Notes under the pieces: generated by a model
What the model saw: only the letters and a program-made list of their open reading frames with translations
The model's database searches: none
What the model was told of the DNA's origin: nothing
Virus record (IMG/VR): IMGVR_UViG_3300044799_000054
Span: 1-46,952 of that record
DNA: 46,952 nt
Origin: a virus
Reading direction: 5' to 3' (one strand)
Shown here: in pieces, positions 20,473-37,471 of the stretch
Position numbering within the stretch: position 1 is the first letter of the stretch
How the letters are laid out: each line of letters starts with the position of its first letter
Made by a program: the position numbers and the translations under genes

Positions 20473-21138
20473 TTATACTCTGAACTTGAACCAGTCATCT
20501 TTGAACGTGTTTTTCATCATCTCCAGCCGCTTGGCAACCGGGTAAATCCCATGCCAACCCATCACAATCGCATCCGGCACCAGGTTGACATTCACCGTAG
20601 AGTTCCATTTCGCCGGGCAACTAACGAATATATCCTTATACTTTTCCTCGACGATCATCTTATTGAACGATCCCTGTTCTGCCCAGCGCGGTTCACCCGG
20701 ATATCTGCTCAGCCAATCATCAATAAATTCCACAACCAACGGCCCAGTCCTGAAATACATTACGCCAATATTGTGGTGCGCTTCCATGCCATTATCTTTG
20801 AACCAGGGAGCATTGTGTTCCACCGCACCAATTAATCCAGAGTTTGGATCACCTCCCTCCGCGAAGATTGTGCGTAAATCCACTTGCCCGTTTACTATTG
20901 CCGCATCACTATCTATCCAGGCGATAAATTCATAGCCCCGCTCGAGTGCCCATTTCAATAACCAAATCTTAGACCATCCACCATGCACATTCTGTTCGGG
21001 GTGGATGTCGCCCACTATATTCCAATAATCGAATTTAAAAGCTCTGGCATAAGACGCATGGCGCTGATAGGTCAACCGGTGCGCGTCGGCAAAGTCATTT
21101 GAGGACCAACATTGCTGAATGATCAATCCGGTATTCAT
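20473..21138 (-). CDS. Glycosyltransferase, GT-A fold (GMA12/MNN10, GT34-like)
   Basis: The 221-residue protein shows IAWIDSDAAI, the DxD metal and nucleotide-sugar site, near residue 75. Other family marks are WSKIWLLKWAL, AEHH-type acceptor segments (NGMEAHHNIGVMYFRTG), EQGSFNKMI and WHGIYP. It would transfer a sugar from a nucleotide-activated donor. It overlaps the GT4 gene upstream by four bases and lies between capsid and connector genes. The acceptor may be the virion or a host polymer; the donor could be the sugar made by the 25.5-34.8 kb genes. Confidence 0.82.
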   Translation of the reverse strand: MNTGLIIQQCWSSNDFADAHRLTYQRHASYARAFKFDYWNIVGDIHPEQNVHGGWSKIWLLKWALERGYEFIAWIDSDAAIVNGQVDLRTIFAEGGDPNSGLIGAVEHNAPWFKDNGMEAHHNIGVMYFRTGPLVVEFIDDWLSRYPGEPRWAEQGSFNKMIVEEKYKDIFVSCPAKWNSTVNVNLVPDAIVMGWHGIYPVAKRLEMMKNTFKDDWFKFRV

Positions 21139-22363: not shown

Positions 22364-22774
22364 TTATCCGTCGCGGCCTTGCAGGTAGTTGATGCTGACC
22401 ATGGTCGGAGCTGTGATAGTCCCAGCCACCAACAGAGCGAGCCAACAACCGGCAGTGCCAGGCGAGACGATATGACTCGCCAGCGTGAGAGCGCAGGGAA
22501 CACCGGTTGCCAGCGTGCCCAAGGCCACAGGTAAAGTGCCCAAAGTACCAGCCGCAACCACTACCGGAATAGTCCCTGACCCAGCGTTGGTGTATTTACC
22601 AAGTACCATGGAGCCGTAAATACCTCCTGCCGTGCCCAAGGCCATCACGTTAGCCGAAGTAACCGTGATAGCACCATGAGAAGCAGGCACGAAAACCACC
22701 GGGAAGATTGCGGCAGAAGCGCATAAAGTTCCGATTGAAACATTTACAGTTTTTAAGTCGCCAAAAGCAGCCAT
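22364..22774 (-). CDS. Probable capsid decoration protein
   Basis: The 136-residue protein directly follows the capsid gene. It is rich in G, A, T and V with many short strands (ITVTSANVMALGTAGGIYGSMVLGKYTNAGSGTIPVVVAAGTLG). Small beta proteins in this place are often decoration or head-stabilising proteins. AAAAGGAG precedes the start. The call rests on position. Confidence 0.55.
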   Translation of the reverse strand: MAAFGDLKTVNVSIGTLCASAAIFPVVFVPASHGAITVTSANVMALGTAGGIYGSMVLGKYTNAGSGTIPVVVAAGTLGTLPVALGTLATGVPCALTLASHIVSPGTAGCWLALLVAGTITAPTMVSINYLQGRDG

Positions 22775-22787
22775 TTCATATCTCCTT

Positions 22788-23639
22788 TTAGCCTGTCACG
22801 GCTGAGCCAACAGTGTTGATGCAGACCCCAAACTGAGGCCGCCAAACACCCTTGGCATATACGGCTGAAAGGTTTAATTCCCAGGCGCGTCGTGAAGCAT
22901 CGCGCTCGGGCTCGATACGCGGAGCACGCCGCCAGTCAATGGCCAGCGCAACGCGTGAGAACATTCCGCCATAAGTAGCCGTGCCGGATGCAATCGAGAC
23001 ATTTCCATCCATGTAGATAGAAACGCCGGCCACAGTCTGTACATAAAAGCGGTTTGCAACTTCGTCAACCAGGGCAGGCGAATTTGTCACCGCCACGCCT
23101 GGACCGATAATGGTGCCTAAACTAAAGTATTGATTTGGGTGCAAAACGCAAACGTAAGGTTGTGGTGCATAAGCAGCCACTAATTTGGCGCGAGCAGCTA
23201 AGAACTGCCCCCAGGTCAATGCGGTTGAAGTCCCGCCAACTGTTCCGCAGGTGAAAGATGAGAACAAGGCTGCTAGATCGGTATCGACCTTCTGACCCAT
23301 AGCCGCCCCCAATTCTTGCAACATATCGGCACGCACACCGAAAATATCGGATTCTGCGCGCTGATCGGTGAGCAAGAACTGCGCTCCATATTCAGCAGGA
23401 GTCAGGGTTTGGTCGGTTGAGGGAGTGAAGGCCTGTCCAGCCAGATCATCACGTTCATTGATTGCCCCGATGGTAACGGCTCCATAGGTCGAATTGGTAC
23501 GAACTGCCATACCAGTACGATCATTGATGCCCGTAACCAGGGCACTCATCACATCATTCTCACGCGCGGTAAACAGTACGTCTGCCCAAACTGTGTTGAC
23601 GTATGAACTGATATCAGCGTAAGTATTGAATACTGCCAT
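22788..23639 (-). CDS. Major capsid protein
   Basis: The 283-residue protein follows the scaffold gene. Its sequence (FTARENDVMSALVTGINDRTGMAVRTNSTYGAVTIGAINERDDLAGQAFTPS, then LTPAEYGAQFLLTDQRAESDIFGVRADMLQELGAAMGQKVDTDLAALF) fits the N-arm, E-loop and long helix of the HK97 fold. The second half (PQPYVCVLHPNQYFSLG, VAGVSIYMDGNVSI, FSRVALAIDWRRAPRIE) fits the P- and A-domains. There is no N-terminal delta domain; a separate scaffold gene precedes it. Confidence 0.85.
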   Translation of the reverse strand: MAVFNTYADISSYVNTVWADVLFTARENDVMSALVTGINDRTGMAVRTNSTYGAVTIGAINERDDLAGQAFTPSTDQTLTPAEYGAQFLLTDQRAESDIFGVRADMLQELGAAMGQKVDTDLAALFSSFTCGTVGGTSTALTWGQFLAARAKLVAAYAPQPYVCVLHPNQYFSLGTIIGPGVAVTNSPALVDEVANRFYVQTVAGVSIYMDGNVSIASGTATYGGMFSRVALAIDWRRAPRIEPERDASRRAWELNLSAVYAKGVWRPQFGVCINTVGSAVTG

Positions 23640-23669: not shown

Positions 23670-24236
23670 TTATGTTTTGGGTTCGGGCGCCATTACGCCT
23701 CCGCCCATTTTGCGAACCACTGCCGGGTCATACATATTCGCTCCAGAACCATGAATTCTGGCTGATTGTTGTGCAACCGTTTCGCCTATTACGGCCCCAC
23801 CGGGATTGGTCGGGCTAACTGTGGGCGGCGGTTTGGGTCCTTTCGGCAGCGCATCGAATATAAGTTTGGCATCGGCTTCCATCTCTTCAGAGGTCTCCCC
23901 CTGAATACGGTCAGCCAATACATCGGGCAGGCCAACTTTGCGGGCAACTTCTGCACGCTTGGTGGTGACTTCGAGTTTTTTGAGTTGGTTTTGCAAGTCT
24001 TTGGCTTCTTTCTTCAATCTCTCGATCTCGGGAAGTTCAGCATCCTTGCGTGCCTTCTCAGCAACCTCCATGTCGTCGGCCTTCTTCGCCTTGGGTTTTA
24101 GGTCTTTCACCTCACTGCGTAATTTCTCAATCAGCAGCATGGCGCGTTCTTTGTCATACGGTTCCTCGACCAACGGCTCTGCCGCCGGTGTTGGGATTTC
24201 TGCCACTACCTGAGTGGGTTCTACTGGATCAGACAT
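23670..24236 (-). CDS. Scaffolding protein
   Basis: The start at 24236 follows AAGGAAC. The 188-residue protein is acidic and proline-rich at the start, then forms a long lysine/glutamate coiled coil (residues 25-110), then has a flexible PKGPKPPPTVSPTNPGG segment. This layout and its place just before the capsid gene are typical of DUF4355-like scaffolds, which guide shell assembly and then leave. Confidence 0.85.
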   Translation of the reverse strand: MSDPVEPTQVVAEIPTPAAEPLVEEPYDKERAMLLIEKLRSEVKDLKPKAKKADDMEVAEKARKDAELPEIERLKKEAKDLQNQLKKLEVTTKRAEVARKVGLPDVLADRIQGETSEEMEADAKLIFDALPKGPKPPPTVSPTNPGGAVIGETVAQQSARIHGSGANMYDPAVVRKMGGGVMAPEPKT

Positions 24237-24262
24237 TGTTAAGTTCCTTTCGTGAGTTAACA

Positions 24263-24293
24263 CAAAAAAGCCCGTCTCATCTAGAGACGGGCT
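24263..24293 (-). terminator. Strong intrinsic terminator upstream of the scaffold gene
   Basis: On the minus strand AGCCCGTCTC and GAGACGGGCT pair perfectly (10 bp, 5-base loop) and are followed by six T. It separates the terminase-portal-sugar-Mu F unit from the scaffold-capsid unit. For capsid expression there must be a promoter past it, or read-through. Confidence 0.85.
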
Positions 24294-24476: not shown

Positions 24477-25502
24477 TCATTCACCCACCAAATCTTTCAA
24501 CGCTGCCTCAACTCGCATGGTTCCATAATCCGCATTCTCGACCTGCTTTGACAATTGCGAGAGTTCGAACTTGCCCGCTTTCCATGCATCATACTTGCCG
24601 GGACCCAAAAGTTTACGTTGTTTATCTTCGCTCAACTTCATAAACTCATCAATGCCTTGGCGTCTATCAGGGTTCGGGTCCAGCATCGTGACAGGAATAG
24701 GGGAGCAACGGCAGTTATAATGCCCGTCCAGTGGTTCATCCAATTCGTGAAATGTACCATCCAACACATAACAGGCTTCACAAGTAAGATCATCCAATTC
24801 TGCGCTCCAGGTCCAGCCCTTCACGATCTCCATTTTATATTGTGCATTGATGTTCTTATAATTCTGCCGACTGGCTTCCCGATATGACCATAACTGCACC
24901 GTCCTGGCTGTGCGCAAGGCCGCCGTAAGAGATCCGCCAAGATCATGCTTAATCAATCTGGCAATCTCACGCGGGTTGAATCCCAACGCCACATTGGTGA
25001 TAATTGTCTCACTCACTGACCGCGCCGTGAATTCACCATAGCCTTCCAGTGTTTTGAATAGACTACCCTCTGGGTCCAAGAAGTGCAAAAGTTGCTTGAT
25101 AACATCCGGGTTGAGTGTGTTGAAGCGCACATTGACACCCAATCCGGCCTCGGTCAATATCCGCCTGAGCAACAATATACTATCCTTAGACCCCTGTAAT
25201 ATTGCATCATTGGCGATGGACCGCAATTCAACCTTCATGAATGCGGCATATTGTTCTAGTTCCTTAACGATGGCTTCCATCAAGTCTTTGTACTGCGCCA
25301 GACGCATGATCTGGCCGCCGGTCATCTGCCCGCCTGCCTGTTCAATCTGGATAAGTAGCAACTCAATCCGTGGAACCAGGTTAGCATAAATATCAAGATA
25401 AGCGTTTATCAGACGTTTCAATGCCACTGCATCCTTGGCGGCCATTGCCTTATTGAATTTCCGTATCATTACCTCTACATCATTGGGTTTAGTTATTACC
25501 AT
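24477..25502 (-). CDS. Mu F-like head morphogenesis (minor head) protein
   Basis: The 341-residue protein is helical for 200 residues, then has the Mu F domain: YREASRQNYKNINAQYKMEIVKGWTWSAELDDLTCEACYVLDGTFHELDEPLDGHYNCRCSPIPV. The CxxC pair and the HYNCRC motif are diagnostic of phage Mu protein F/SPP1 gp7. It is an internal head protein linked to the portal and to DNA entry. The start overlaps the last sugar gene by 14 bases, so the insert is translationally joined to the head genes. Normally this gene would directly follow the portal gene, now 9.3 kb upstream. Confidence 0.9.
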   Translation of the reverse strand: MVITKPNDVEVMIRKFNKAMAAKDAVALKRLINAYLDIYANLVPRIELLLIQIEQAGGQMTGGQIMRLAQYKDLMEAIVKELEQYAAFMKVELRSIANDAILQGSKDSILLLRRILTEAGLGVNVRFNTLNPDVIKQLLHFLDPEGSLFKTLEGYGEFTARSVSETIITNVALGFNPREIARLIKHDLGGSLTAALRTARTVQLWSYREASRQNYKNINAQYKMEIVKGWTWSAELDDLTCEACYVLDGTFHELDEPLDGHYNCRCSPIPVTMLDPNPDRRQGIDEFMKLSEDKQRKLLGPGKYDAWKAGKFELSQLSKQVENADYGTMRVEAALKDLVGE

Positions 25503-26694
25503 AATCCATGATCTCCTTCAACTCGTCCGCAGGCAATCTTGGTGTCATATCTTCCATCGCATCTGCCTGGAAGCCAGTACTCGACACACGGGGGTATTGC
25601 TGGTAATTGGGGTCGATCATTACCTCACAGATGATCGGTGAATCATTCTCAATCAATAAATTCATCCTTGGAGAAAGAGTATTATTTTCGGCAAGATGTC
25701 CCGTAACGTATGAAAACGGTATTTCAAACGCCTCAGCAAGCGCGCCAATATCCGGTAATGTTAACCCACTCTCAGGATCGCATCCCACATGCCGCCCCTC
25801 GAACCTGGCGTTCTGCATATTCCTGATTGACCCATACCCATAGTTATTGAACACGAAGAACTTGATAGGCAAATTCAACCGCCTTACCACTTCCAATTCC
25901 TGTATGTTGAGCATGAACCCGCCATCGCCGGTAACGCAGATCGTGCGCCTGCCCCCACTACCAATGCAAGCGCCGATTGCTGCGGGAATGTCAATTCCCA
26001 TTGCGCCAATGGTAGAACAGTTTACTATCCGCTGTCCTTGCTTGACTTTGAACGTTTGCAGGAACGAATTCGGAGCTCCACCTGAACTGCCAATTGCCAA
26101 TACATCATCCGGCTGGCACATGTCACTCAGAATGCGCTGAAAGTAGAATGGGTCAATATAGTCGCCCACTTTGCCCTCAAGTTCTGGTCTGAAACGATTG
26201 TATAGCGCCTTGCACCAGGAGAGCCAGTTTGTATCATCAGTTTCTGGCGTTATACCTAAGTATTCAGACATGCCAGCCTTACATAGTTGCACATAGTAGG
26301 GTTTTGATAAATCAATTTTTTCTTTATCCCAAAATTCCTTCCTTCTCTTGTCTTTTTCGCTTTTGTGAGTACTCGGCAATTTATCTAATTCGGCCTGGTC
26401 AATGTCATAAATAACTTTATATGCCCTTGGTGCAAAGTTATCAATCCTGTGCGCCACTTGTTCATTATCCAGCCTTGCGCCAAACACATAAAGTGTATCC
26501 GCTTTCTGTTGGATGATATTCGCTGCCCGCTGGCCATACACGCCCGGACGCCCGCAGAAGGCAGGATTATCTTCTGCCACAAGATCAATAGCCATCCAGG
26601 TAGTAAGAACTGGTATACCCAAGTCACAAAGATGAGTGACTAACGCTGGATTGTTTCGACAACCGTTACCTATCAAAATAACTGGCTTATACAT
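25489..26694 (-). CDS. Thiamine-diphosphate enzyme, middle and C-terminal domains (acetolactate synthase/YerE-like)
   Basis: This 401-residue protein corresponds to the M and PP domains of the acetolactate synthase superfamily. Residues 1-130 (KPVILIGNGCRNNPALV, IQQKADTLYVFGARLDNEQ) are the middle domain. Residues 190-360 are the cofactor domain with CVTGDGGFMLNIQELEVVRRLNLPIKFFVFNN, the GDG-x25-NN magnesium/ThDP motif. The YGYGSIRNMQ segment is seen in O-antigen cluster members. The N-terminal PYR domain is a separate gene at 26891-27406. In the yersiniose pathway a related enzyme (YerE) adds a two-carbon unit from pyruvate to a CDP-3,6-dideoxy-4-ketohexose; a similar job here is inference from the neighbours. 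AAAGGA precedes the start. Confidence 0.88.
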   Translation of the reverse strand: MYKPVILIGNGCRNNPALVTHLCDLGIPVLTTWMAIDLVAEDNPAFCGRPGVYGQRAANIIQQKADTLYVFGARLDNEQVAHRIDNFAPRAYKVIYDIDQAELDKLPSTHKSEKDKRRKEFWDKEKIDLSKPYYVQLCKAGMSEYLGITPETDDTNWLSWCKALYNRFRPELEGKVGDYIDPFYFQRILSDMCQPDDVLAIGSSGGAPNSFLQTFKVKQGQRIVNCSTIGAMGIDIPAAIGACIGSGGRRTICVTGDGGFMLNIQELEVVRRLNLPIKFFVFNNYGYGSIRNMQNARFEGRHVGCDPESGLTLPDIGALAEAFEIPFSYVTGHLAENNTLSPRMNLLIENDSPIICEVMIDPNYQQYPRVSSTGFQADAMEDMTPRLPADELKEIMDYGNN

Positions 26695-26735
26695 GGCAAT
26701 CCTTTCGTGCTATACTGTTCCTGGAGGTACAAACT

Positions 26736-26894
26736 ATGGTACTATCAATCGTTTTCATGGTTATCATACTTGCCCTGAATTTATTGGGCTTTCTCAATAC
26801 GCTCAACACTACCATGCTGTTAATCTTCTTCGCCGCAATCGGCATCATGTCTGAAATCCATGGACTGAGGCCCAAAAAGGATGAGTCGCATTAG
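26736..26894 (+). CDS. Small membrane protein on the opposite strand
   Basis: The ATG follows GGAGG at eight bases, and TATACT (26711-26716) could be a -10. The 52-residue protein is two hydrophobic segments (MVLSIVFMVIILALNLLGF and TTMLLIFFAAIGIMS) with a polar end (EIHGLRPKKDESH). It lies exactly between the two halves of the split thiamine enzyme and is read against them; its stop codon overlaps theirs. Apart from the repressor pair it is the only convincing plus-strand gene. Function unknown. Confidence 0.6.
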   Translation: MVLSIVFMVIILALNLLGFLNTLNTTMLLIFFAAIGIMSEIHGLRPKKDESH

Positions 26895-27406
26895 ATTTCT
26901 TCCATCTGTACATCCAAAGGTACAGATAACCAGCATGGGCCACGACGCTCTTTAAGACAATCATATATCATAGCAAGAGCCAATCCCTGCGCCATATCAC
27001 CCTTAAGGGGCTGAGCTGCGTATTTTGTGATGTGTTCAACCATTGGCACAATATCAATTTCCTGAATGCCCCGTGTCCTCAATCCACTATTGCCAATCAG
27101 GGTGTCACTTCTGGGCTGCCCGCTTATGAATAATACAGGCACGCTGTCAACCCATGCCGCCGCGCAGGGGGTCACCGCATTACAGGCTCCTGGGCCGCTT
27201 GTCACCAGGCATACCCCCAAACCGTTTCTGATTTGTGCATATCCAATCGCGGCAAAGCCCGCACCCTGTTCATGAAGCATAGATACCGCCCTCAATCCAC
27301 TGCGCCCAAGCGCATCCACCAGATAGGCTGCGCCGCCGCCTGGGACGAAAAAGACGCAATCCACGTACTGTTTTAGAATGTCGAAAATGGCTTCACTTGT
27401 GTTCAT
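26891..27406 (-). CDS. Thiamine-diphosphate enzyme, N-terminal PYR domain
   Basis: The 171-residue protein is a complete TPP_enzyme_N domain: EAIFDILKQYVDCVFFVPGGGAAYLVDAL, the catalytic glutamate in HEQGAGFAAIGYAQ near residue 45, and LVTSGPGACNAVTPCAAAWVDSVPVLFISGQ. It ends at the normal domain border (PLDVQMEEI). Together with 25489-26694 it gives 572 residues, the size of a single-chain acetolactate synthase-type enzyme. Split ThDP enzymes exist (for example sulfopyruvate decarboxylase), so two subunits could form an active complex. Confidence 0.88.
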   Translation of the reverse strand: MNTSEAIFDILKQYVDCVFFVPGGGAAYLVDALGRSGLRAVSMLHEQGAGFAAIGYAQIRNGLGVCLVTSGPGACNAVTPCAAAWVDSVPVLFISGQPRSDTLIGNSGLRTRGIQEIDIVPMVEHITKYAAQPLKGDMAQGLALAMIYDCLKERRGPCWLSVPLDVQMEEI

Positions 27407-27677
27407 GTTTCAATTCTCTCATTTCTTCAGTTACATCAATGTCTTTATAGGGATAATTCCTGAAAACATGATAGCGCACATTGCAATAAGGGCAGACGAA
27501 CGTTTCCTCCATTGTAAAAAATAAATCGCAGTCTGGTAGTTTTGTTATACAAAGAGCGGTAAATGGATCGTAGTGCCAAACATCGCTACCGCAATTGTCG
27601 CACGTCCCATGATAGCCCCCCAAAGTGTATATGCCGCCTATCTCATAAGTCTTATCGTCTGTGTTCATAATCGCCAA
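27393..27677 (-). CDS. Small zinc-ribbon protein in the sugar block
   Basis: A TTG start at 27677 follows AAAGGA at close range; an in-frame ATG three codons later is possible. The 94-residue protein has CDNCGS near residue 26 and CPYCNVRYH near residue 62, so one zinc site. It overlaps the radical SAM gene upstream and the PYR-domain gene downstream by about 14 bases each, which ties it to the operon. Function unknown. Confidence 0.6.
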   Translation of the reverse strand: MAIMNTDDKTYEIGGIYTLGGYHGTCDNCGSDVWHYDPFTALCITKLPDCDLFFTMEETFVCPYCNVRYHVFRNYPYKDIDVTEEMRELKHEHK

Positions 27678-28654
27678 AGTATCCTTTCTCGTTGGTCAAC
27701 ATCAAGATAATCCGGCGCGCCATAGATATACTGGCAATCACGGCAAGCTGGGTTCTTGTAACGCTCGCCATATAAATGCATTCGCCAGAAGTCCCTTATC
27801 TTCTCGCTGCCCCAAATCTCTTGCAATGTGTTTTTGCGCATGTCGCCAACGTTCACCTGCGTTGACCAGTCAAAGCAGCACAGATGTACAATCCCCTCGA
27901 CGTTGATCATCAGGGTATAGAAGATATAAGGGCATGTAACGTTTGGCGTTATGGGATCGCCATTAATTGTAAGTTCTGGCCTGGCCTGTCCCAGGGTCGT
28001 GTTATAAAGCATCCCATTATTCCACTGCATCGGATATTCGACATCGATGACGTCAGAAATGGGTGCAAAAATGCGCTTGAATTCATCAACATTTGTATAG
28101 GGTGTGTTCAATGGAATAATCTTATTATAAATACGGCAGTTGCCTCGATGTTCGTACAGATCGGTCACGCCCGCTAAAATCTTGTCAAACATTCCCTTGC
28201 GTCTCGTAAGACGCTCATAACCTTCCTCGTTGACCGCCGCAATGCCAATATTAATTTCAGTCATACCCGCATCAATCAATTTGCGATTGAAGTTGGGCTC
28301 CAACATGCTGGCATTCGTGCGCACAATGTGAGACGCGAATATATGTTTATCCACCGCATATTTGACCAGTTCGATAAACTGCGGGTAAATCATGCTCTCC
28401 CCCATGCCATTGTAATAGGCCTTATAAGGTCTATCTGAATGCGGGAATTCTGCAAATTGATCGATGGCCCTTTTGAATAATTCCGGGTCCATATCCATAC
28501 GCTTGAAGCCAACGCGCTTGCGTTCATCCTCCCGAGCGGTTGGGCAGAAGATACAGGCGAAGTTACAGCGCGTGGTTAACTCAAACATTGCCGCAAGCGG
28601 CCGTTCCAGGGGTGCGAGTGCTGCCAGGTCAAGACGGTCGGTTACTGGTTTCAT
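27665..28654 (-). CDS. Radical SAM/SPASM protein 2
   Basis: The start at 28654 overlaps the previous stop (ATGA). Cys30-x3-Cys34-x2-Cys37 (CNFACIFC) binds the SAM-cleaving [4Fe-4S] cluster. A GGE-like NGMGES segment follows near residue 85. The C-terminal 110 residues (CPYIFYTLMINVEGIVHLCCFDW, NVGDMRKNTLQEIWGSEKIRDFWR, NPACRDCQY) form a SPASM domain for extra clusters. It is a paralogue of its neighbour. Known SPASM enzymes oxidise peptides or sugars such as 2-deoxystreptamine intermediates; in this setting a sugar substrate is a reasonable guess. Confidence 0.88.
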   Translation of the reverse strand: MKPVTDRLDLAALAPLERPLAAMFELTTRCNFACIFCPTAREDERKRVGFKRMDMDPELFKRAIDQFAEFPHSDRPYKAYYNGMGESMIYPQFIELVKYAVDKHIFASHIVRTNASMLEPNFNRKLIDAGMTEINIGIAAVNEEGYERLTRRKGMFDKILAGVTDLYEHRGNCRIYNKIIPLNTPYTNVDEFKRIFAPISDVIDVEYPMQWNNGMLYNTTLGQARPELTINGDPITPNVTCPYIFYTLMINVEGIVHLCCFDWSTQVNVGDMRKNTLQEIWGSEKIRDFWRMHLYGERYKNPACRDCQYIYGAPDYLDVDQRERILWRL

Positions 28655-29640
28655 CACATCCTCATCAAAAGTTCATAGCGGTAGCGGTCAATATTGTCCG
28701 GCGCGCACATCAAATAATAGCAATTGGCACAGGCCGGATTATCGCCACGCTTGCCCAGCAGCATCATGCGCTGCATGTCACGCATAGCATGACCATCCCA
28801 AATCTGCTTAATTGACTGTTTATTTACATCCCCGACAATCGTATTGTGTGCCCAATCCTCGTTACACAAAGAAACAGACCCGTTCCAATTGACAGCCATT
28901 ATGTAGAAAGGCCAGGGGCAGACGATCTTAGGCGTCAGCGGTATTCCGTCATAGGTATCACTTTTGATGCCTAGGGTAAAATCCTTGATGCCACTCATGC
29001 TCCAACCATGTAGATTTTCCACGGCAATGTAATCACTGACCGGCGTGAAGTCAGTATAGAACTTATCAATCTCAGCCTCGGTCAAACCGCTGTTTACAAT
29101 GGATGCGTAAATCTTGCAATCTCCACGCCTGGCGTATAAATCCTCCAGGTTATCAAGAAACTTGCCATAATCCATATCCACACCGGAAATGCGCTTATAC
29201 CCGCTGGCGCTGACGTGCTTGACAGAAATTCCCAATATATCAAGTCCGGCATCAACTAGGCATTGATTGAGTTCGGGAGTAAGCAATAACCCGTTGGTCT
29301 TTGTCCATATCCTCTCGGTAGTCCCTGATTGTTTCAAATATGCGACCATCTCAGGAAAATGTTTATTCACCAATGGTTCGCCATCTTTGTAAAGTAATAT
29401 ATTTTTCAGCTTGCGCGGAAAATATTTTAGATCGTCTACCACCTTCTTGAACAGATTGAAATCCATCACCCCATTGGGGCGCATCTTCTGTAATTCCTTA
29501 TCGCCGGTCGGGCAGAAGATACAATGGCAATTACATAGATTGGAAGGATCGATATATAACATGAACGGCATATCCAGCGGGATAACTTCTTCCAGTTTGA
29601 CGCGATCGTGTGCTCGCAGATCGGCAGCAATGATTTTCAT
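28654..29640 (-). CDS. Radical SAM/SPASM protein 1
   Basis: The start at 29640 overlaps the upstream zinc-ribbon gene (ATGA). Cys36-x3-Cys40-x2-Cys43 (CNCHCIFC) is the radical SAM site, and YKDGEPL replaces the GGE motif. The SPASM-like end has CPWPFYIMAVNWNGSVSLCNEDW, VGDVNKQSIKQIWDG and NPACANCYYLMC. The protein has 328 residues. It shares domain order with 27665-28654 throughout, suggesting an old duplication and consecutive or paired reactions. Confidence 0.88.
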   Translation of the reverse strand: MKIIAADLRAHDRVKLEEVIPLDMPFMLYIDPSNLCNCHCIFCPTGDKELQKMRPNGVMDFNLFKKVVDDLKYFPRKLKNILLYKDGEPLVNKHFPEMVAYLKQSGTTERIWTKTNGLLLTPELNQCLVDAGLDILGISVKHVSASGYKRISGVDMDYGKFLDNLEDLYARRGDCKIYASIVNSGLTEAEIDKFYTDFTPVSDYIAVENLHGWSMSGIKDFTLGIKSDTYDGIPLTPKIVCPWPFYIMAVNWNGSVSLCNEDWAHNTIVGDVNKQSIKQIWDGHAMRDMQRMMLLGKRGDNPACANCYYLMCAPDNIDRYRYELLMRM

Positions 29641-29900
29641 TTCAAAATAAATCCTCGCGGCGCTCCACATTGTGAACAGAATCGATTAGATAATGGGTTG
29701 GGACTGGCGCACCATAAACACATAAATTCATTGCTCTGGTTTTTCACGCCAAATAAAGCGGTGTCATTGCTATAAAGACTTTTCCGAAGCGCGTTTATGA
29801 TGTCGAAATTATTGGCATAGAGTTCAAAATTCGCCCTAATCAGTCCATCATAATCCATTGAATAACTCATTGAATTTATTTGCAACCATTTATCTTGCAC
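29637..29900 (-). CDS. Small protein with C-terminal zinc ribbon
   Basis: The GTG start at 29900 follows GGAGG at five bases, inside the end of the dehydrogenase gene. The 87-residue protein is mixed for 60 residues and ends with CLWCASPNPLSNRFCSQCGAPRGF, a double CxxC zinc ribbon of the zf-RanBP/DZANK kind. It is linked to both neighbours by overlaps. Function unknown. Confidence 0.6.
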   Translation of the reverse strand: MQDKWLQINSMSYSMDYDGLIRANFELYANNFDIINALRKSLYSNDTALFGVKNQSNEFMCLWCASPNPLSNRFCSQCGAPRGFILK

Positions 29901-30546
29901 TAAATCCTCCGTCCACAATCAAAGTAATACCCGTGATATAATCCGCCGCCTTGCTTGCTAGAAACATCACCGCCCCCGCCACATCAGCAGGCTTGCCAAA
30001 CCTGCCCGCCGGTATCCGACCCCGTATCACTTCGGCATGTTCCTTGTCATCAAGTAGCGGTTTGAGCATGGGCGCATTGATGAAACCGGGCGCAATGGCA
30101 TTGACCTGGATATTATAGGGTGCCCATTCGTTTGATAGGCATTTCGTCATCTCAATCAATCCAGACTTGGACACTGAATAACCAATGCAAAAACGTGTTC
30201 CCTGAATTCCTGCAATACTGGCAATATTGATGATCTTGCCGCCGCCCCTGGGGATCATAATTCGTGCAGCCTGCTGGCAAAGGTCAAATGCGGCGGTCAG
30301 ATTGAGTTCCATATCCTCATCCCATTGCGCCAGGTTGTAATCAGCGGCCGCATCAAAAGATTGCGCCGCAGCACAGTTTACCAATACATCCACCTCGTCA
30401 ATCTGTATATATTTCCTGCTAACCCGGCTGGATAGATCATAGCCATAGGTTCTTGAAACCTGTTGCACTTCATACCCCGCATCATGCAAGGCGATCACAA
30501 TTGCGCTACCAATGCCCCCACTACCTCCCGTTACTACTGCGTTCAT
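29890..30546 (-). CDS. Short-chain dehydrogenase/reductase (FabG-like)
   Basis: The 218-residue protein has TGGSGGIG for NAD(P) binding, NCAAA in place of NNAG, a serine in INIASIAG, the catalytic YSVSK pair, and the IAPGFI and IVDGGFS ends. It would reduce a keto group or oxidise an alcohol. In yersiniose synthesis a reductase (YerF) acts after YerE, but YerF belongs to a different dehydrogenase type, so the comparison is loose. It overlaps the methyltransferase gene by four bases. Confidence 0.88.
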   Translation of the reverse strand: MNAVVTGGSGGIGSAIVIALHDAGYEVQQVSRTYGYDLSSRVSRKYIQIDEVDVLVNCAAAQSFDAAADYNLAQWDEDMELNLTAAFDLCQQAARIMIPRGGGKIINIASIAGIQGTRFCIGYSVSKSGLIEMTKCLSNEWAPYNIQVNAIAPGFINAPMLKPLLDDKEHAEVIRGRIPAGRFGKPADVAGAVMFLASKAADYITGITLIVDGGFSAR

Positions 30547-31559
30547 AGCACAATTACCTCATTTTTATAGCCACGCTCTTTAATCGTTTTCAATATACTC
30601 GCCTCCTGGTTCTGGACCATCACCAATATTGGTGCATCACTTTCGACATGATCCAATATTGGTATGCCCCCAATAGACGAGCCGCGAAAGTCCTCATTCA
30701 AATCAACAAATTGCAAGATATTCAATTTGGCTTTTGTTAGTAGATGTATCAGTAAGTCGCCGCAACCCCATACGATAACAGGGACAGTGATCTTATTTAA
30801 TGCCTGGAGCTTCAGATTTACCTCATAATTAATGTGCTCCTGAGATTTTCTATAGATTTCCATCGGCGACTTCCTGGGCATATAAATCACGCGGTAACAA
30901 TACCCGAACGTATATAGAGGCAGTATCTCTCCATGTACGGGATAATAGTCATAAATTGCTAATAACTTATCGAGAACCCAGGGGGCAAATTTATTAATGT
31001 GTCCCTGGTTATAATCCCAGATCGGTAACATGACTTGCAATAGTTGAACCGCATCTGGAACCTCAATCAGGAAAGCTCCCCCAGCCGCCCGGACTGATGA
31101 TGCCAGTTTATCCATAGCGCCGCGCAGGTCATATATATGCTCCAGGACGTGTGAGCATATCAATAAGTCAATCCTGTCCGGCAATACTTCACACACATTC
31201 ACGGTCGAGGCACTGGCATAACCCAACTCATTCAACCGTTTTGTTATATACCCTTCGCCGCCGCCAAAGTCAACAATACACCCACCTTTGTCTGGTATGA
31301 GTTTACGAGCCATTTCTACAATCTCATCTTGCCGCTTATGGTTCTCGTCACAGGCCAATACAGGTGTATTTCCGTAGTGTTTCTGATAATACTCGTCATA
31401 ATCCGCCTGTGTGCGGTCATTGTCATAATAGATAAGGCCGCACTCACATAGGCAGATCGTGTTCCTGGCGGGCAAAGTCCAACCATCGGGAACGATGAAG
31501 TCCATCTGCCAATCGTCTACACGTTTCTTACTTCCACATACCGGGCATTCAGTTCTCAC
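30543..31559 (-). CDS. SAM-dependent methyltransferase with zinc-binding N-terminus, sugar C-methyltransferase type
   Basis: The GTG start at 31559 follows GGAGG at nine bases, inside the epimerase gene. The 338-residue protein starts with a zinc module (CPVCGS, then CLCECGLIYYDND). The methyltransferase core has CIVDFGGGEGYI and LICSHVLEHI. The last 90 residues (VPVIVWGCGDLLIHLL, QFVDLNEDFRGSSIGGIPILDHV) are a nucleotide-binding fold like the Methyltransf_14 end. This three-part order is typical of enzymes that methylate carbon of 4-keto deoxysugars, such as TylC3. The methylation site is not known. Confidence 0.82.
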   Translation of the reverse strand: MRTECPVCGSKKRVDDWQMDFIVPDGWTLPARNTICLCECGLIYYDNDRTQADYDEYYQKHYGNTPVLACDENHKRQDEIVEMARKLIPDKGGCIVDFGGGEGYITKRLNELGYASASTVNVCEVLPDRIDLLICSHVLEHIYDLRGAMDKLASSVRAAGGAFLIEVPDAVQLLQVMLPIWDYNQGHINKFAPWVLDKLLAIYDYYPVHGEILPLYTFGYCYRVIYMPRKSPMEIYRKSQEHINYEVNLKLQALNKITVPVIVWGCGDLLIHLLTKAKLNILQFVDLNEDFRGSSIGGIPILDHVESDAPILVMVQNQEASILKTIKERGYKNEVIVL

Positions 31560-32301
31560 GTTTATAATCCTCCACGCTTCTCTTGATTGCTTCCTTGAAA
31601 CCAATCTTGACATGTAACCCTAATTCATTTTGAGTGCGAACCGTGGTGGGTAGATACCACTTTTGCCGTTCTTCACTCATCTTGTTCTCTATAACGATTT
31701 CAGGTGTTTTGTCGAAGTTGTAACTTACTTCCTCTGCCAGATGCTGGATAGTCACCGGATATTCACTACCCACGTCATAGATGGCTCCTGGTTCACCGTC
31801 CAGTAATATCTTCCATAGCCATTCTCCCAGGTCGCTGCCATACATGTACGAGCGAACCGTTTTGCCATCGCCCAGGATGCGAATGGGACCGCCATTCACT
31901 GCGTCCCTGATGAATTGCCCAATGGCGAAGTTGTCCCATTTGAGATGAGATCCGCAGAAGGTGAACATACGGGCAATGCGCACATCTAACCCGCTGGCAA
32001 GCAGCATGTTCTCGCTTTCCAGTTTCATCTTGCCGTAGTCGTTGAGGGGATTGGCATAGACCGCACCGGATGAGGCGAAGAGGATGCGGGCGTTACAGCG
32101 TTTGGCAAGTTCTATAACTTTGTCAGGCAGGACAGGCGCAAGGTGAATAATATATTTACAACTATGCGGCCATGCGGCAGCGTTGTTATAAATTATTTGG
32201 TTCATAGGTCTTGTAACTATATCCATTAATTTGTCACAGGCTGTTTTCCACAACCAATATCCCACAAAGCCAGAACCACCGGTTATTAGGACATCGTTCA
32301 T
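31549..32301 (-). CDS. NAD-dependent epimerase/dehydratase (extended SDR)
   Basis: The start at 32301 (MNDVLITGGSGFVGYWLW) shows the Rossmann GxxGxxG. SSGAVY and YGKMK hold the catalytic serine, tyrosine and lysine. GDGKTVRSYMYGSDLGEWLWKIL is the usual substrate-domain motif. At 250 residues it is shorter than 4,6-dehydratases of about 330-360 residues and closer to CDP-sugar 4-reductases or epimerases. It could do the C4 reduction; it is less likely to be the missing CDP-glucose 4,6-dehydratase. Confidence 0.85.
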   Translation of the reverse strand: MNDVLITGGSGFVGYWLWKTACDKLMDIVTRPMNQIIYNNAAAWPHSCKYIIHLAPVLPDKVIELAKRCNARILFASSGAVYANPLNDYGKMKLESENMLLASGLDVRIARMFTFCGSHLKWDNFAIGQFIRDAVNGGPIRILGDGKTVRSYMYGSDLGEWLWKILLDGEPGAIYDVGSEYPVTIQHLAEEVSYNFDKTPEIVIENKMSEERQKWYLPTTVRTQNELGLHVKIGFKEAIKRSVEDYKREN

Positions 32302-32330
32302 ATTCCCTCGCAATACTCCGCAATCTTTGT

Positions 32331-32570
32331 CTACTGTTTTAGAATGGCAATAATTTCATTTACTTTATAATTGACCAAACTTTTTAGGAGGCGTTCTTCA
32401 GTTTTGATGATTTCTTCTGGCACGCCAAGTTTAATTAGTCTGGAGAGACGATAAGAACGATATATCAGTCGCCGAATGGTATCTAGTATCATCGGATTAA
32501 TTCTTTCGTCTTTATAAAATGCCTCTAATTGTTCATCATCATCAAATGGCAAAACAACTTTTAACTCCAT
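32331..32570 (-). CDS. Small hypothetical helical protein
   Basis: The 79-residue protein is charged and helical (LDTIRRLIYRSYRLSRLIKLGVPEEIIKTEERLLKSLV). GAAAGGAGAATGAG precedes the ATG. It sits between the RfbH-like and epimerase genes with small gaps on both sides. No family is recognised. Confidence 0.55.
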   Translation of the reverse strand: MELKVVLPFDDDEQLEAFYKDERINPMILDTIRRLIYRSYRLSRLIKLGVPEEIIKTEERLLKSLVNYKVNEIIAILKQ

Positions 32571-32615
32571 CTCATTCTCCTTTCTCTATATATACCAGTC
32601 TAAGTAAAGCAATCG

Positions 32616-33839
32616 TTACAATCCCTCGCAATATTCTGCTATTTTATTAGCGGCATAGTCTAACTGTTCTATTGACAATCCCGGCCAGCATCCAATCCAG
32701 AAGGCGGTATCGTGAATGTTGTTGGTATTAGTCAGTTCGCCATGAATACGATAATTGATACCCTCATAAGCAGGCTGTCTCAGCAGGTTGCCTCCAAATA
32801 TCGGCCTGTTATGCACCCCCCAACTGTCCAGGAAGCGACACAGATGATTGCGCCTGACAGGTGGCTTGCACAGTAAGGGGAAGCCGAAGGGTGAGGTAGC
32901 ATACCAGGGCGGACTGGTAAAGTAATTATTCATGGTATTAAATTTGTTGTAATCCTCTATTCGTGAAAAGGTAAATAATTGATTCCATAAATGAAGATAA
33001 TTTAATTTCCGCAAATTGATGAATATTTGCAACCTGTCCATCTGCGCGCAACCAATCGCCGCCGCCATGTTTGTTCCCTTCAGGTTATAGCCAATATGCG
33101 AGTAGGTATATTTATGATCGTATGGACCATCAAAGCGCTTAAAACAGGTATTGTCATGCCCTGGTTCGCACCAGCAATCACGGCCCCAATCACGAAATGA
33201 ACGCACTAACTTTGCCAGCAATGGGTTGGATGTGACCACCATCCCGCCCTCTTCTGTGCTGATTTGATGAGCTGGGTAGAAACTGAATGTTGCCAGGTCG
33301 CCAATTGTGCCGCGCTTGCAACCGTTGATTTCAGATCCCAGAGCATCACAACAATCCTCAATCAGCCAGATGCCCCATTCCTGGCATAATTGATATAACT
33401 CGTGCAACTTGACCGGATAGCCCAATGTGTGAGCCAGAATGATCGCCCTGGTCTTTGTTGTGATTGCATCCATTACCACCTGATGATTAGCCACATATTC
33501 GGGTATCATCACATCCACGAATACGGGCACCGCGCCAACCTGCAATATCGGATTAACTGTCGTTGGAAAGTTCAGCGCCGTTGTGATCACCTCATCTCCT
33601 GGCTTCAAGCGCCTGTCTCCCAATTCGGGAGCCGTGAGTGCACTCATTGCGAGCAGGTTGGCTGAGCTGCCACTGTTGCAGAACATCGCATCCTTCACAC
33701 CCAGGTATTGCTCGAACTTGCGTTCGAATTCAATTGTCCAGTGTTCTGATTGGACGCCGTTTAGCAACTCATTGGCGCATTGGATGAGATTATCACGCTC
33801 CTGGTCGCCGTACAATTTCCCTGAGACAGGGACAATCAT
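32616..33839 (-). CDS. rfbH: CDP-4-keto-6-deoxyglucose 3-dehydratase (E1, RfbH/AscC/DdhC-like)
   Basis: The 407-residue protein has the DegT/DnrJ/EryC1 fold (aspartate aminotransferase type I). In SFYPAHQISTEEGG the residue that normally holds the PLP lysine is His191. That is the hallmark of the PMP-dependent C3-dehydratase. The cysteines Cys164, Cys222, Cys224 and Cys232 fit the C-x57-C-x1-C-x7-C [2Fe-2S] motif known for E1. The enzyme removes the C3 hydroxyl of CDP-4-keto-6-deoxyglucose with a reductase partner (E3, RfbI-like), which is not found in this window. This is the strongest evidence that the block makes a 3,6-dideoxyhexose. Confidence 0.93.
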   Translation of the reverse strand: MIVPVSGKLYGDQERDNLIQCANELLNGVQSEHWTIEFERKFEQYLGVKDAMFCNSGSSANLLAMSALTAPELGDRRLKPGDEVITTALNFPTTVNPILQVGAVPVFVDVMIPEYVANHQVVMDAITTKTRAIILAHTLGYPVKLHELYQLCQEWGIWLIEDCCDALGSEINGCKRGTIGDLATFSFYPAHQISTEEGGMVVTSNPLLAKLVRSFRDWGRDCWCEPGHDNTCFKRFDGPYDHKYTYSHIGYNLKGTNMAAAIGCAQMDRLQIFINLRKLNYLHLWNQLFTFSRIEDYNKFNTMNNYFTSPPWYATSPFGFPLLCKPPVRRNHLCRFLDSWGVHNRPIFGGNLLRQPAYEGINYRIHGELTNTNNIHDTAFWIGCWPGLSIEQLDYAANKIAEYCEGL

Positions 33840-34075
33840 TTTATTACCTTATTTTGCTCTTGCTGACGCACCATTTGATCGTGTTCCAATTCTTTTCTGA
33901 TTGAGGTTATATTTTTTTGGCTTTCATTATGTTGGCTGTCTGCCTGTGCAATTCGTGCCATAATACCCATCCAACAGGCAATACCAATGATGGCAACGCC
34001 AGCCGTCACCTGACTAGCAAACAAAAGCCCACCAATTACCACAAATACTGACAAAACGACTAATAACTGTTTCAT
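33836..34075 (-). CDS. Small two-helix membrane protein with coiled-coil tail
   Basis: The start at 34075 follows GGAGG, inside the end of the nucleotidyltransferase gene. Two hydrophobic segments (LLVVLSVFVVIGGLLFA and AGVAIIGIACWMGIMA) are followed by a charged helix (NITSIRKELEHDQMVRQQEQ). The 79-residue protein overlaps both sugar genes. It could anchor an enzyme complex at the membrane or act on its own; no family is recognised. Confidence 0.65.
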   Translation of the reverse strand: MKQLLVVLSVFVVIGGLLFASQVTAGVAIIGIACWMGIMARIAQADSQHNESQKNITSIRKELEHDQMVRQQEQNKVIK

Positions 34076-34755
34076 TCTTTCCTCCACGGCTTTCCATTAT
34101 TCCATGCCGTTTCTAATATTTCTTTGTCATGCAGTGTGTCCATGCACTGCCAGAACCCTTCGTGACGGTAAGCCGTCAGAAGATGCGCCTCAGTCATCCT
34201 TGCCAACGCCCCGCTTTCCCAGGCCTCATCGCCATGAATATAATCTAACGCTTCAGGTTCGCACACAAAAAAACCACCATTGATCCAGCTCAAGGATTGA
34301 TGGTTGTAGTTAATAACATAATCCCGTTCCAGTATGCAGTTACCGAAACGACTAGGCGGGTGAACGGCGGTAACAGTGCAATATGATTCATGATATTTGT
34401 GAACCATCATCACTGAATTCAAATCAACATCACTTACACCGTCACCATAGGTGAGCATGAAGCGTTCACCCAGATACTTTGCCAGCTTTGCCACACGTCC
34501 GCCCGTGAACGTTTCAAGACCAGTGTCGATGAGCTGGACATTGTACGGCAAGTATGCGCCAGCCAGCCATTCATCAATACAGCCGATCTTATAACCGCCC
34601 GCAATTAGAAAATCGGAATAGCCGAAATAGGCGTAAATCCGCATGATATGCTGAAGCATTGGCATGTCGCCAATCTTCACTAACGGTTTGGGGATGTCGC
34701 CGGTCAACTCAGCAAGGCGGCTTCCCCGACCACCTGCGAGTATGACAACTTTCAA
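34072..34755 (-). CDS. rfbF: Glucose-1-phosphate cytidylyltransferase (RfbF-like)
   Basis: The TTG start at 34755 lies directly after the portal gene. The 227-residue protein has the nucleotidyltransferase signature LAGGRGSRLAELTGDIPKPLVKIG. It has marks specific to RfbF/DdhA/AscA: DTGLETFTGGRVAKL, LTYGDGVSDVDL, WINGGFFV and EGFWQCMDTLHDKE. It would make CDP-glucose from CTP and glucose-1-phosphate, the first step to CDP-dideoxyhexoses. It is about 30 residues shorter than bacterial enzymes (near 257). It is the first gene of the inserted block. Confidence 0.92.
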   Translation of the reverse strand: MKVVILAGGRGSRLAELTGDIPKPLVKIGDMPMLQHIMRIYAYFGYSDFLIAGGYKIGCIDEWLAGAYLPYNVQLIDTGLETFTGGRVAKLAKYLGERFMLTYGDGVSDVDLNSVMMVHKYHESYCTVTAVHPPSRFGNCILERDYVINYNHQSLSWINGGFFVCEPEALDYIHGDEAWESGALARMTEAHLLTAYRHEGFWQCMDTLHDKEILETAWNNGKPWRKE

Positions 34756-34756
34756 G

Positions 34757-36211
34757 TTATCTCACTTTCTGTTTCATCGCCGGGTTATTATTCTGCTTCA
34801 TGCCGCCATTACTTGTAAACTTGTTCAGGAAGAATGTGCCCAGATCGCCCTGCGCCTGCTCATTGGCTGCCTGTTCGTCATCGATGCGTGTCTTTTCGGC
34901 TTCCCAATCCTTGTAGCCGCGCTTGTCATATAACGTCTCCTGGCTGATAATGCCAGCCTGTTGGTCTTTCATCAGGATAGATTGTTCCTCAACCTCATTC
35001 CCGGGCAGCGGGTTAGGCCATACCAGTTCGCACTCTACTGGCTCTATATTAGCCAGGATAAGCAGGCGCCGGTTGATTTCCTTCAAACCATCGCCATACA
35101 ATTCCCGCTTGGTGTTGGTCTTGCTCAGTTCATCCTGATAAAGAACGTGCAAGCCAAAGTTAGTCAATGCGCCCAACTTGTCACTGAAGGATGACAAATC
35201 TACTGTACGGGTAATATCAAACAATGACCGGCGCAATGCCTCCATGAAGCCAGTGGCTCCAGGCAGATCACTAAGAGGCGGCAGTTGATTAACCTCCGCC
35301 AGGGGATCATTGTAAGACGGCATGTCATCGGGACCCATTGTTATATCTTTCTTTTCCCCCAACATCTTGCCCCAACGCTGTGGATGTGCAAACAAGCGAA
35401 TGACCTTACTAACATTGGATGCAATGAAGTTATAACGGTCTTGCAACTCAATAACGTCATCCGTTATGTCAGGCAGGCCCCAAATCTCCCCGACCTGCGG
35501 CATGTTCTGCCAATGAATAATTGGCGGAAAGTCGTAATTCCATAACGTTTGTTTGATCAATTCCCACTTACCGCCGGTATCAACACCAGCCTCATAATTG
35601 CGAATTATCCATGAATTGATGACTGGATTGTCAGTAGCTATGATTGTCTCCTGCCCATCTGCTCCAATAGAAATGGCAAAGTTATCGGCATCAGTCGTCT
35701 CTTTCTTCGAGATTTCCTTGCCGTCCAACCCGACTGTTTTATATTGGATGGTATAGCGGATCACCTTATCCAGATCATCAGGGTCGGTATCGATGCTCAT
35801 AAATGCCGGGTCCAACGGTACAAGACGGGTAAATAAACCACCCGTGACAATCTTATTGAATACCATCCCGCTCTCACCGCCATACATGCCCATCTTGTGC
35901 AACAGGATTGGTTTCAGGTTCGCTTTATATACACCGTCGATATAGGTCTGTTGGGCAGAAGCATCGCCATATTCAAACTCAATACCCTGATCGAATAGAC
36001 GACTTACACTGCGATTGAGTAACAAGCCGGTATAGTTGACAACCAGGTTATCATCAGCCTGGTTAGAACGCACGCGTATAAATCGCTTCTGGATGCCCAT
36101 GCGATATTCACGCCGCCGGATGATGAAGTCTGTCTGTTTCTTGTATTCCTGGTCTGCGCCAAGTTGCAGCCAGTCAACAATACGATTGCGAATTGTGTCA
36201 ATTAAATTCAT
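34757..36211 (-). CDS. Portal protein (SPP1 gp6-like)
   Basis: The 484-residue protein lies four bases after the large terminase. Recognisable parts are the N-terminal RNRIVDWLQLGADQEY, a stem region with VVNYTGLLLNRSVSRLFDQG, the wing strand VPLDPAFMSIDTDPDD, and the crown helices (LPGATGFMEALRRSLFDITRTVDL). The C-terminus is basic and asparagine-rich. Portals form the 12-fold ring through which DNA is packaged. Confidence 0.9.
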   Translation of the reverse strand: MNLIDTIRNRIVDWLQLGADQEYKKQTDFIIRRREYRMGIQKRFIRVRSNQADDNLVVNYTGLLLNRSVSRLFDQGIEFEYGDASAQQTYIDGVYKANLKPILLHKMGMYGGESGMVFNKIVTGGLFTRLVPLDPAFMSIDTDPDDLDKVIRYTIQYKTVGLDGKEISKKETTDADNFAISIGADGQETIIATDNPVINSWIIRNYEAGVDTGGKWELIKQTLWNYDFPPIIHWQNMPQVGEIWGLPDITDDVIELQDRYNFIASNVSKVIRLFAHPQRWGKMLGEKKDITMGPDDMPSYNDPLAEVNQLPPLSDLPGATGFMEALRRSLFDITRTVDLSSFSDKLGALTNFGLHVLYQDELSKTNTKRELYGDGLKEINRRLLILANIEPVECELVWPNPLPGNEVEEQSILMKDQQAGIISQETLYDKRGYKDWEAEKTRIDDEQAANEQAQGDLGTFFLNKFTSNGGMKQNNNPAMKQKVR

Positions 36212-36214
36212 GTT

Positions 36215-37471
36215 TTACCATCCTGCGAACGGGTCTGTTACAACTTCCGCTGAATATTCGTTCATGTCGTCCTCGTAAGCATATCTTGTCGCATCGATCA
36301 AGTGATTGTTCATCTCGATCGGCATTCGGATTGCCTTACCGTCTTTGTCCTCTTTCCACTTGTACTGCATGATTTCATTTTTCGTATAGATGCAATTTTT
36401 ATCGATAATCAAGGTCTGTTGTTGTAGCCACTGTATTCCAAACAGAACACTATCCTTTCCCTTACGAGCTGCTTGCACATTGACACCGCGCCGACGTAAT
36501 TCTTCAATTGACTTTGGCTCGGCGCTATCGCATTTAACATAGTCCTGCCCAATAATCCTTTTGACTTCCACTGCCAGCCAGTCATTTGTCAGACCCTTCT
36601 CGTACAATTCATCAAAGAAATAGATGGTCTTGAACTTGCGATCATAATGCGACACGCTAAGAGCCGCCGGATCGCTGGAGAAGCCAAAGTCGAGCCCATT
36701 GCGGTGATTGGTAAACTGGTCCCGCATTTCAGAAAGGTCGCGTACTTCCCAATTCTTGAAGATGACATTGCCCAGGATGCCCCAATTCCCAAAGGTGTAA
36801 ACATCTCTGTAATATTTGTCGGTTTCATTCTCTAATCCTTTTATGTCGTCCGGCGTCAGAAAGCGGTTGTGGATGTACCAGGTCTTCATAATGCTCAAAT
36901 CGTCATTATGGTATTCCGTCTGGTCATCTGCCCAGCCAATCTTGCTAAAGTATTCCTCATAAATCCAGTGGGATTGTAGAATAGGATTGAAGGATAAGGT
37001 AAGTTCCTTCAGTTCCTTCTCATCACCGCCACGCTGGCGCTTGAACAGTTGCTTGATTGTGTCGCGCTCTGCCTCAGTAGCCTCCTCAAACCAGATATCG
37101 GTCCAGGCGCCCTTGGCCGGCACAATCGACTTCAACTTCTCAACATCATCCATGCCGACAAATGCGATCTGATAGCCATTGGTACAGGTGATCAGCATTT
37201 CGCTTTTGTTGATGTTGAACAGCCGTTGAACGCCCCAATCGTTGATAACCCGACATATTTCAGCATAGACACTCATGCGCAATGTCCGGGCAACTTGGCG
37301 AGCTACCAAGTAATTGCGCCCGCCAGACATTACCCGATAAACTGCACGCTGGGCAAGGAATACAGATTTTCCAGAGCCGCTGCCGCCGTAAAAGATTTGG
37401 GTTCGTGCTAAATTTTTAAGGTACTTTATAAAAACTTCATTGAAAACTATTGGATCAATCTCAACTTTCAT
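36215..37471 (-). CDS. terL: Terminase large subunit (PBSX-type)
   Basis: The 418-residue protein has a Walker A motif GGSGSGKS near residue 30, Walker B in WTDIWFEEATEAE near residue 130, and the coupling motif LTLSFNPI. The nuclease domain has GLDFGFSSDPAAL, CDSAEPKSIEELRRRG and HLIDATRYA. It is the packaging ATPase and DNA-cutting enzyme. Its relation to SPP1/PBSX-type terminases suggests headful packaging, which agrees with a circularly permuted, circle-closing assembly. Confidence 0.95.
   Translation of the reverse strand: MKVEIDPIVFNEVFIKYLKNLARTQIFYGGSGSGKSVFLAQRAVYRVMSGGRNYLVARQVARTLRMSVYAEICRVINDWGVQRLFNINKSEMLITCTNGYQIAFVGMDDVEKLKSIVPAKGAWTDIWFEEATEAERDTIKQLFKRQRGGDEKELKELTLSFNPILQSHWIYEEYFSKIGWADDQTEYHNDDLSIMKTWYIHNRFLTPDDIKGLENETDKYYRDVYTFGNWGILGNVIFKNWEVRDLSEMRDQFTNHRNGLDFGFSSDPAALSVSHYDRKFKTIYFFDELYEKGLTNDWLAVEVKRIIGQDYVKCDSAEPKSIEELRRRGVNVQAARKGKDSVLFGIQWLQQQTLIIDKNCIYTKNEIMQYKWKEDKDGKAIRMPIEMNNHLIDATRYAYEDDMNEYSAEVVTDPFAGW

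Follow-up and report, generated by a model that had tools for sequence, protein, structure and literature searches.

The stretch of DNA analyzed here, called the window, is the whole of IMG/VR virus record IMGVR_UViG_3300044799_000054, 46,952 nt from an uncultured tailed phage. On its minus strand, a 9.3-kb cassette of sugar-type enzyme genes (25489-34755) lies exactly between the portal gene and the Mu F-like head morphogenesis gene. This insertion had been proposed in an initial annotation, and profile-based families and exact coordinates bear it out. We consider it probable, at roughly 60%, that the phage uses these genes to make a C-branched cytidine diphosphate (CDP)-3,6-dideoxyhexose during head synthesis and glycosylates its own virion with it. 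The cassette comprises thirteen open reading frames (ORFs), running from RfbF to the C half of a split thiamine diphosphate (ThDP) enzyme and including two short-chain dehydrogenases/reductases (SDRs). Along the minus strand it is preceded by the genes of the terminase large subunit (TerL) and portal, and followed by those of the Mu F-like protein, scaffold, capsid, a 136-aa protein and two glycosyltransferases:

36215..37471, minus strand: terminase large subunit, given for context (PF04466/PF17288)
34757..36211, minus strand: portal protein, upstream neighbor of the cassette (PF05133 SPP1_portal)
34072..34755, minus strand: RfbF-like glucose-1-phosphate cytidylyltransferase (TIGR02623)
33836..34087, minus strand: 83-aa ORF with an N-terminal hydrophobic stretch, start and stop overlapping its neighbors, no PHROG match
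32616..33839, minus strand: RfbH/E1, CDP-4-keto-6-deoxyglucose 3-dehydratase (NF011936)
32331..32570, minus strand: 79-aa ORF, no homologue found among related loci
31549..32298, minus strand: short extended SDR with shortened N-terminal part, candidate YerF-like ketoreductase (PF01370 Epimerase)
30543..31583, minus strand: methyltransferase with Cys-rich N-terminal domain (PF13489 Methyltransf_23)
29890..30546, minus strand: classical SDR oxidoreductase (PF13561 adh_short_C2/PF00106)
29637..29918, minus strand: Cys-rich zinc-ribbon-like small protein (PF13240, just under cut-off)
28654..29670, minus strand: radical SAM/SPASM-twitch enzyme 1 (PF04055+PF13186)
27665..28657, minus strand: radical SAM/SPASM-twitch enzyme 2 (PF04055+PF13186)
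27393..27677, minus strand: Cys-rich small protein, no Pfam match
26891..27406, minus strand: ThDP enzyme, PYR-domain half or N half (PF02776 TPP_enzyme_N), with the Glu in LHEQGAG
26736..26894, plus strand: 52-aa ORF of membrane type in the gap that separates the ThDP halves, preceded by a good ribosome site (GGAGG type)
25489..26694, minus strand: ThDP enzyme, middle and PP-domain half or C half (PF00205+PF02775, TPP_enzyme_M/C), with GDG...NN
24477..25502, minus strand: Mu F-like head morphogenesis protein, downstream neighbor of the cassette (PF04233)
23670..24263, minus strand: head scaffolding protein (phrog_233)
22788..23639, minus strand: major capsid protein (PF25209, phrog_267)
22364..22774, minus strand: 136-aa protein, candidate decoration protein or acceptor, between the capsid and glycosyltransferase genes, no PHROG match
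21135..22268 (or to 22301), minus strand: GT4-type glycosyltransferase, 3' of the capsid gene (PF00534, phrog_2170)
20473..21138, minus strand: GT34-like (GT-A) glycosyltransferase with a DxD motif (relatives match PF05637/PF03407)

The enzyme families named in the initial annotation were confirmed by profile; the 83-aa and 79-aa ORFs, the two Cys-rich proteins and the two glycosyltransferases 3' of the capsid gene had been left out of it. Its statement that all the genes overlap holds for most junctions, including the 14 nt shared by the ThDP C half and the Mu F-like gene. The RfbF gene starts 1 nt from the end of the portal gene, and within the cassette the genes are spaced apart on either side of the 79-aa ORF (45 and 32 nt) and between the ThDP halves, where a gap of 196 nt contains the plus-strand ORF. 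Gene order suggests that the cassette may be expressed late, together with the head genes. Neither the promoter scan nor the terminator-like sites in the region showed any excess over shuffles; one strong terminator-like stem (24293-24269, minus strand, 10 pairs, 7 GC) lies between the Mu F-like and scaffold genes. The nearest isolates by terminase large subunit are Marinitoga phages (52-53% identity), and a single-sequence scan with the portal found no matches.

Relatives, whose loci carry L-numbers here, were gathered by three viral scans with RfbH, the GT4 protein and the ThDP N half as queries. Including the window, 49 loci on about 35 distinct contigs combine the ThDP enzyme with phage structural genes, and the cassette was thus found, as sought, in related phages: nine contigs besides the window carry portal, cassette and downstream head gene together. 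Gene order within the cassette varies, and its state changes at least six times on the capsid tree. In cassette-free relatives and in the cultured Microcystis phage Mae-JY09, the portal and Mu F-like genes lie close together, leaving the site empty. The genome-contig scan for a host returned five contigs of metagenome-assembled genomes from several different phyla.

It is hardly credible that the cassette is a chimeric assembly or a decaying, functionless insertion, even if the ThDP gene is in two pieces 196 nt apart and the terminal repeat of the contig falls within an internal repeat. Both chance and chimerism are ruled out because both junctions recur in the nine other contigs, near-identical versions come from three metagenomes (three assemblies about 99.97% identical) and pairwise ratios of nonsynonymous to synonymous substitution (dN/dS) of cassette genes among relatives are about 0.04-0.32; the assembly version of this explanation is already refuted. 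These ratios show that the cassette genes are under purifying selection among relatives, and cassette codon usage matches that of the phage genes (0.84, where phage halves average 0.86). The terminal repeat is an exact one of 127 bp (1-127 and 46826-46952), and since it sits within a 208-bp repeat also present internally (45269-45476), circularity of the contig could be repeat-mediated. Other long direct repeats, 95-97% identical, lie near the replication genes (40433-40637/40815-41019 and 41064-41216/45476-45628).

RfbF and RfbH had been said to define a route to CDP-3,6-dideoxyhexoses, and the comparisons support this. RfbF has as its best PDB match the glucose-1-phosphate cytidylyltransferase 1TZF (E 9e-53). 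RfbH scores 497.7 bits against NF011936, above the cut-off of 423, and its best PDB match is 3BCX (E 5e-116). In the alignment with 3BCX, its SFYPAH motif places the catalytic His at the site of the pyridoxal phosphate-binding lysine, where 3BB8 has Lys. The motif C-X57-C-X1-C-X7-C, which we take to define the [2Fe-2S] site of E1, is intact in the window and in most relatives. By these sequence features RfbH is of the E1 type.

For the ThDP enzyme, the initial annotation had suggested a two-carbon branching step as in yersiniose synthesis. The larger C half, which has the GDG...NN ThDP-binding motif, supports this: its closest solved structure is JanthE (8RPH), a YerE-like enzyme (PMC12188165), at E 8e-51 as against 6e-30 for the best acetolactate (acetohydroxyacid) synthase, a preference of about 70 bits. 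YerE moves activated acetaldehyde from pyruvate to CDP-3,6-dideoxy-4-keto-D-glucose (PMC12247030), the substrate that RfbH action would supply, which fits the pairing of RfbH with the ThDP enzyme. In the smallest cassette, that of L055, the order is portal, RfbH, short SDR, ThDP enzyme and Mu F-like gene, and this minimal set appears to match the branching steps of yersiniose synthesis. It is unlikely that the enzyme is instead an acetolactate-synthase-like metabolic one in a general island of auxiliary metabolism. Neither piece reaches an equivalog cut-off, the N half has matches to acetolactate synthase profiles, and the N-half profile places 5AHK first, with JanthE behind 5AHK, BbmA and several acetolactate synthases; this is countered by the bit-score preference of the C half, by the presence of the enzyme beside RfbH in both close and distant phages and by a minimal cassette holding only RfbH, SDR and ThDP enzyme. 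We take 5AHK to be PpYerE, although the literature consulted did not confirm it.

The two halves probably assemble into one enzyme. The catalytic Glu of LHEQGAG is invariant in 10 aligned sequences, and the family includes fused, N|MC, NM|C and N|M|C forms, the fused one in L167-L171. A pseudogene or frameshift was rejected because the cuts, in three split patterns, are confined across the family to the same two domain linkers, with the active sites kept. In L018, a GIY-YIG/NUMOD3 homing-endonuclease gene lies between the halves (L018:7585-8571). Two different phage groups have, immediately upstream of the ThDP gene, a NeuB-family synthase or a longer homologue (L002:13870-14739; L166-L171), which may supply a long keto-acid donor to the ThDP enzyme.

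The short SDR, most members of whose family have YxxxK, was considered as the missing 4,6-dehydratase and rejected, because relatives carry it side by side with RfbG. The sugar-type assignment of the methyltransferase gained support from its nearest folds. Its profile matches are TcaB9, KijD1 and MtmC, and for its AlphaFold model, which has a predicted local distance difference test score (pLDDT) of 90, the top 18 Foldseek matches are all sugar C-methyltransferases, again MtmC, KijD1 and TcaB9. The three-domain architecture is matched over the full length (E 2.7e-14 to 2e-11, about 420 columns); TM-scores to deoxysugar C-methyltransferases are only about 0.5 with high root-mean-square deviation, probably because domain orientation differs. 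The modeled protein thus resembles deoxysugar C-methyltransferases. The two radical SAM enzymes are 34% identical, and the model of the first (pLDDT 90) is nearest to BtrN, then DesII and BlsE, which are sugar-acting enzymes. The Cys-rich protein at 27393..27677 has homologues in L052, L068, L080 and L121 beside the ThDP N half.

The GT4 protein has B736L (3OY2) as its best PDB match. The GT34-like protein matches profiles of xyloglucan xylosyltransferases, and its D76 and D78 are invariant. Of 8 loci with the cassette, 7 carry its gene, as against 2 of 21 lacking the cassette (Fisher p 1.7e-4, no tree correction). The slot of the 136-aa protein is also filled in L002, L017 and Mae-JY09. Further on, 20152-20460 encodes a 102-aa protein that might decorate the head; homologues of it occur in L102, L112 and L115. 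The location of the glycosyltransferases bears on where the sugar would go. Phage conversion of O-antigen is well known, and such sugars occur in bacterial lipopolysaccharide, as in the case of yersiniose (PMC12247030). The pathway might therefore modify host surface polysaccharide, for receptor masking or superinfection exclusion, and two small cassette ORFs with hydrophobic stretches would suit this role. We regard it as doubtful, as the profiled window genes yielded neither a membrane glycosyltransferase nor a flippase or gtrA/gtrB-type gene, and the cassette lies inside the head operon, with glycosyltransferases directly 3' of the capsid gene, in many relatives. Phages are also known to glycosylate their DNA with glycosyltransferases of their own, and a C5-cytosine methylase gene is present at 412-1317 (its best match does not extend beyond the N-terminal half of the Pfam profile). 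That the sugar is attached to DNA bases against host nucleases is nevertheless very unlikely: the proteins profiled revealed neither a hydroxymethylase nor any other base hypermodification gene, and the glycosyltransferase genes belong to the head module rather than to the replication genes.

Several results weigh against a virion-directed, C-branched sugar, in addition to the ranking of the ThDP N half. The family assignment held for RfbH above its cut-off, whereas RfbF matched its family at 231 bits, under the curated cut-off of 300. Cassette-free relatives retain the GT4 gene, which therefore is not specific to this sugar, and the tree-corrected association of GT34 with the cassette is not significant (median p 0.25, underpowered); among independent pairs on the capsid tree, GT34 goes with the cassette in 2.6 out of 3, a number too small to reach significance. 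Of the full yersiniose set (RfbF, RfbG, E1, E3, YerE, YerF), RfbG is absent from the window, so that the route depends on the host, and the E1 reductase (E3) was not found among the cassette genes and other profiled proteins, a scan that took in part of the window ORFs. Because of these two gaps, we infer that the host supplies both steps, and the window pathway may work like a yersiniose-type one with such help. Among 24 records searched, RfbF was confined to the window and two unrelated loci, and seven close phage relatives carried, beside RfbH, an RfbG-like gene matched over most of the profile, none of them with RfbF; the window shows the reverse, with RfbF and without RfbG.

Several independent tests argue for the pathway assignment, and position together with the glycosyltransferases points to use on the virion. 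In the proposed pathway, RfbF would form CDP-glucose and a 4,6-dehydratase, host-supplied here and phage RfbG in the relatives, would convert it to CDP-4-keto-6-deoxyglucose. RfbH with a host reductase would remove the 3-hydroxyl, the split YerE-like enzyme would transfer an acyl unit from a 2-keto acid onto the C4 ketone, and the short SDR would reduce the ketone of the new branch. Further decoration may come from the C-methyltransferase and radical SAM enzymes, after which the GT4-like and GT34-like enzymes encoded near the capsid gene would attach the sugar to a head protein. The substrates, the order of the steps and the acceptor are what these assignments suggest.

A broader proposal is tentative: a widespread uncultured phage group might make branched multi-carbon deoxysugars in the head operon, with NeuB perhaps giving the keto-acid donor where present, the product coating the capsid and the enzyme set being exchanged between phages as antigenic or host-interaction variation. 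In six cassette-free loci (L091, L098, L112, L115, L120, L131), 3-9 kb of other genes lie downstream of GT4. ORFs sampled in cassette-free relatives, mostly downstream of GT4, are rich in GT2 and also include radical SAM and methyltransferase members, so that varied sugar modification seems to be a habit of this phage group.

The system shares with bacterial yersiniose A/YerE-type pathways an E1-type RfbH, a ThDP ligase that is probably YerE-like and what may be the reductase for the branch; RfbF is encoded in the window, RfbG by relatives. It differs from them in being phage-encoded and placed in a head operon, in having its ThDP enzyme split at domain linkers and in its additional enzymes, the C-methyltransferase and those of the radical SAM type, and profiling turned up no E1 reductase. 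In chloroviruses, sugar synthesis and capsid glycosyltransferases are virus-encoded too; these are eukaryotic viruses of another capsid lineage, and the likeness is limited to part of one glycosyltransferase, the GT4 protein that matches B736L. We know of no dedicated branched dideoxysugar synthesis in mycobacteriophages Che8, Corndog and Myrna. Their virions are glycosylated (Freeman 2023, as cited in PMC12363180), and by that citation their phage-encoded glycosyltransferases modify structural proteins; in the window, the two glycosyltransferases are candidates for such a role. Mae-JY09 shares the order TerL-portal-MuF-scaffold-capsid-x-GT, with capsid protein and glycosyltransferase 44-45% identical. 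In contrast to the window, its portal and Mu F genes overlap and its head module has no RfbH or ThDP enzyme; by eye, an SDR gene and a further glycosyltransferase-like one can be made out. In Aeromonas phage Aeh1, nrdA is likewise divided into separate genes (PMC2988022), a parallel to which the homing endonuclease in L018 adds, but the ThDP cuts are placed at the domain linkers, in three recurring patterns. Searches of the literature on phage dideoxyhexoses and auxiliary metabolic genes, and on the phage combination of acetolactate synthase, radical SAM and glycosyltransferase, found nothing. A tblastn search of cultured phages with the ThDP enzyme gave, among the matches listed, identities of about 21-27%, the annotated ones being acetolactate synthases. 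That phages glycosylate their heads is already known; for a YerE-type pathway within the head operon of a phage, the literature and collections searched appear to contain no description.

To our knowledge, cultured phages with glycosylated virions are few. The head-operon module brings with it a ThDP enzyme that is split by nature, in three arrangements, and points to possible new candidates for tertiary alcohol synthesis. The carbon-branching step has so far been known from bacterial polysaccharides and antibiotics, and here a recurring head-operon module encodes the building of the sugar and likely its attachment, so that one could test directly if phages produce sugars dedicated to their capsids.

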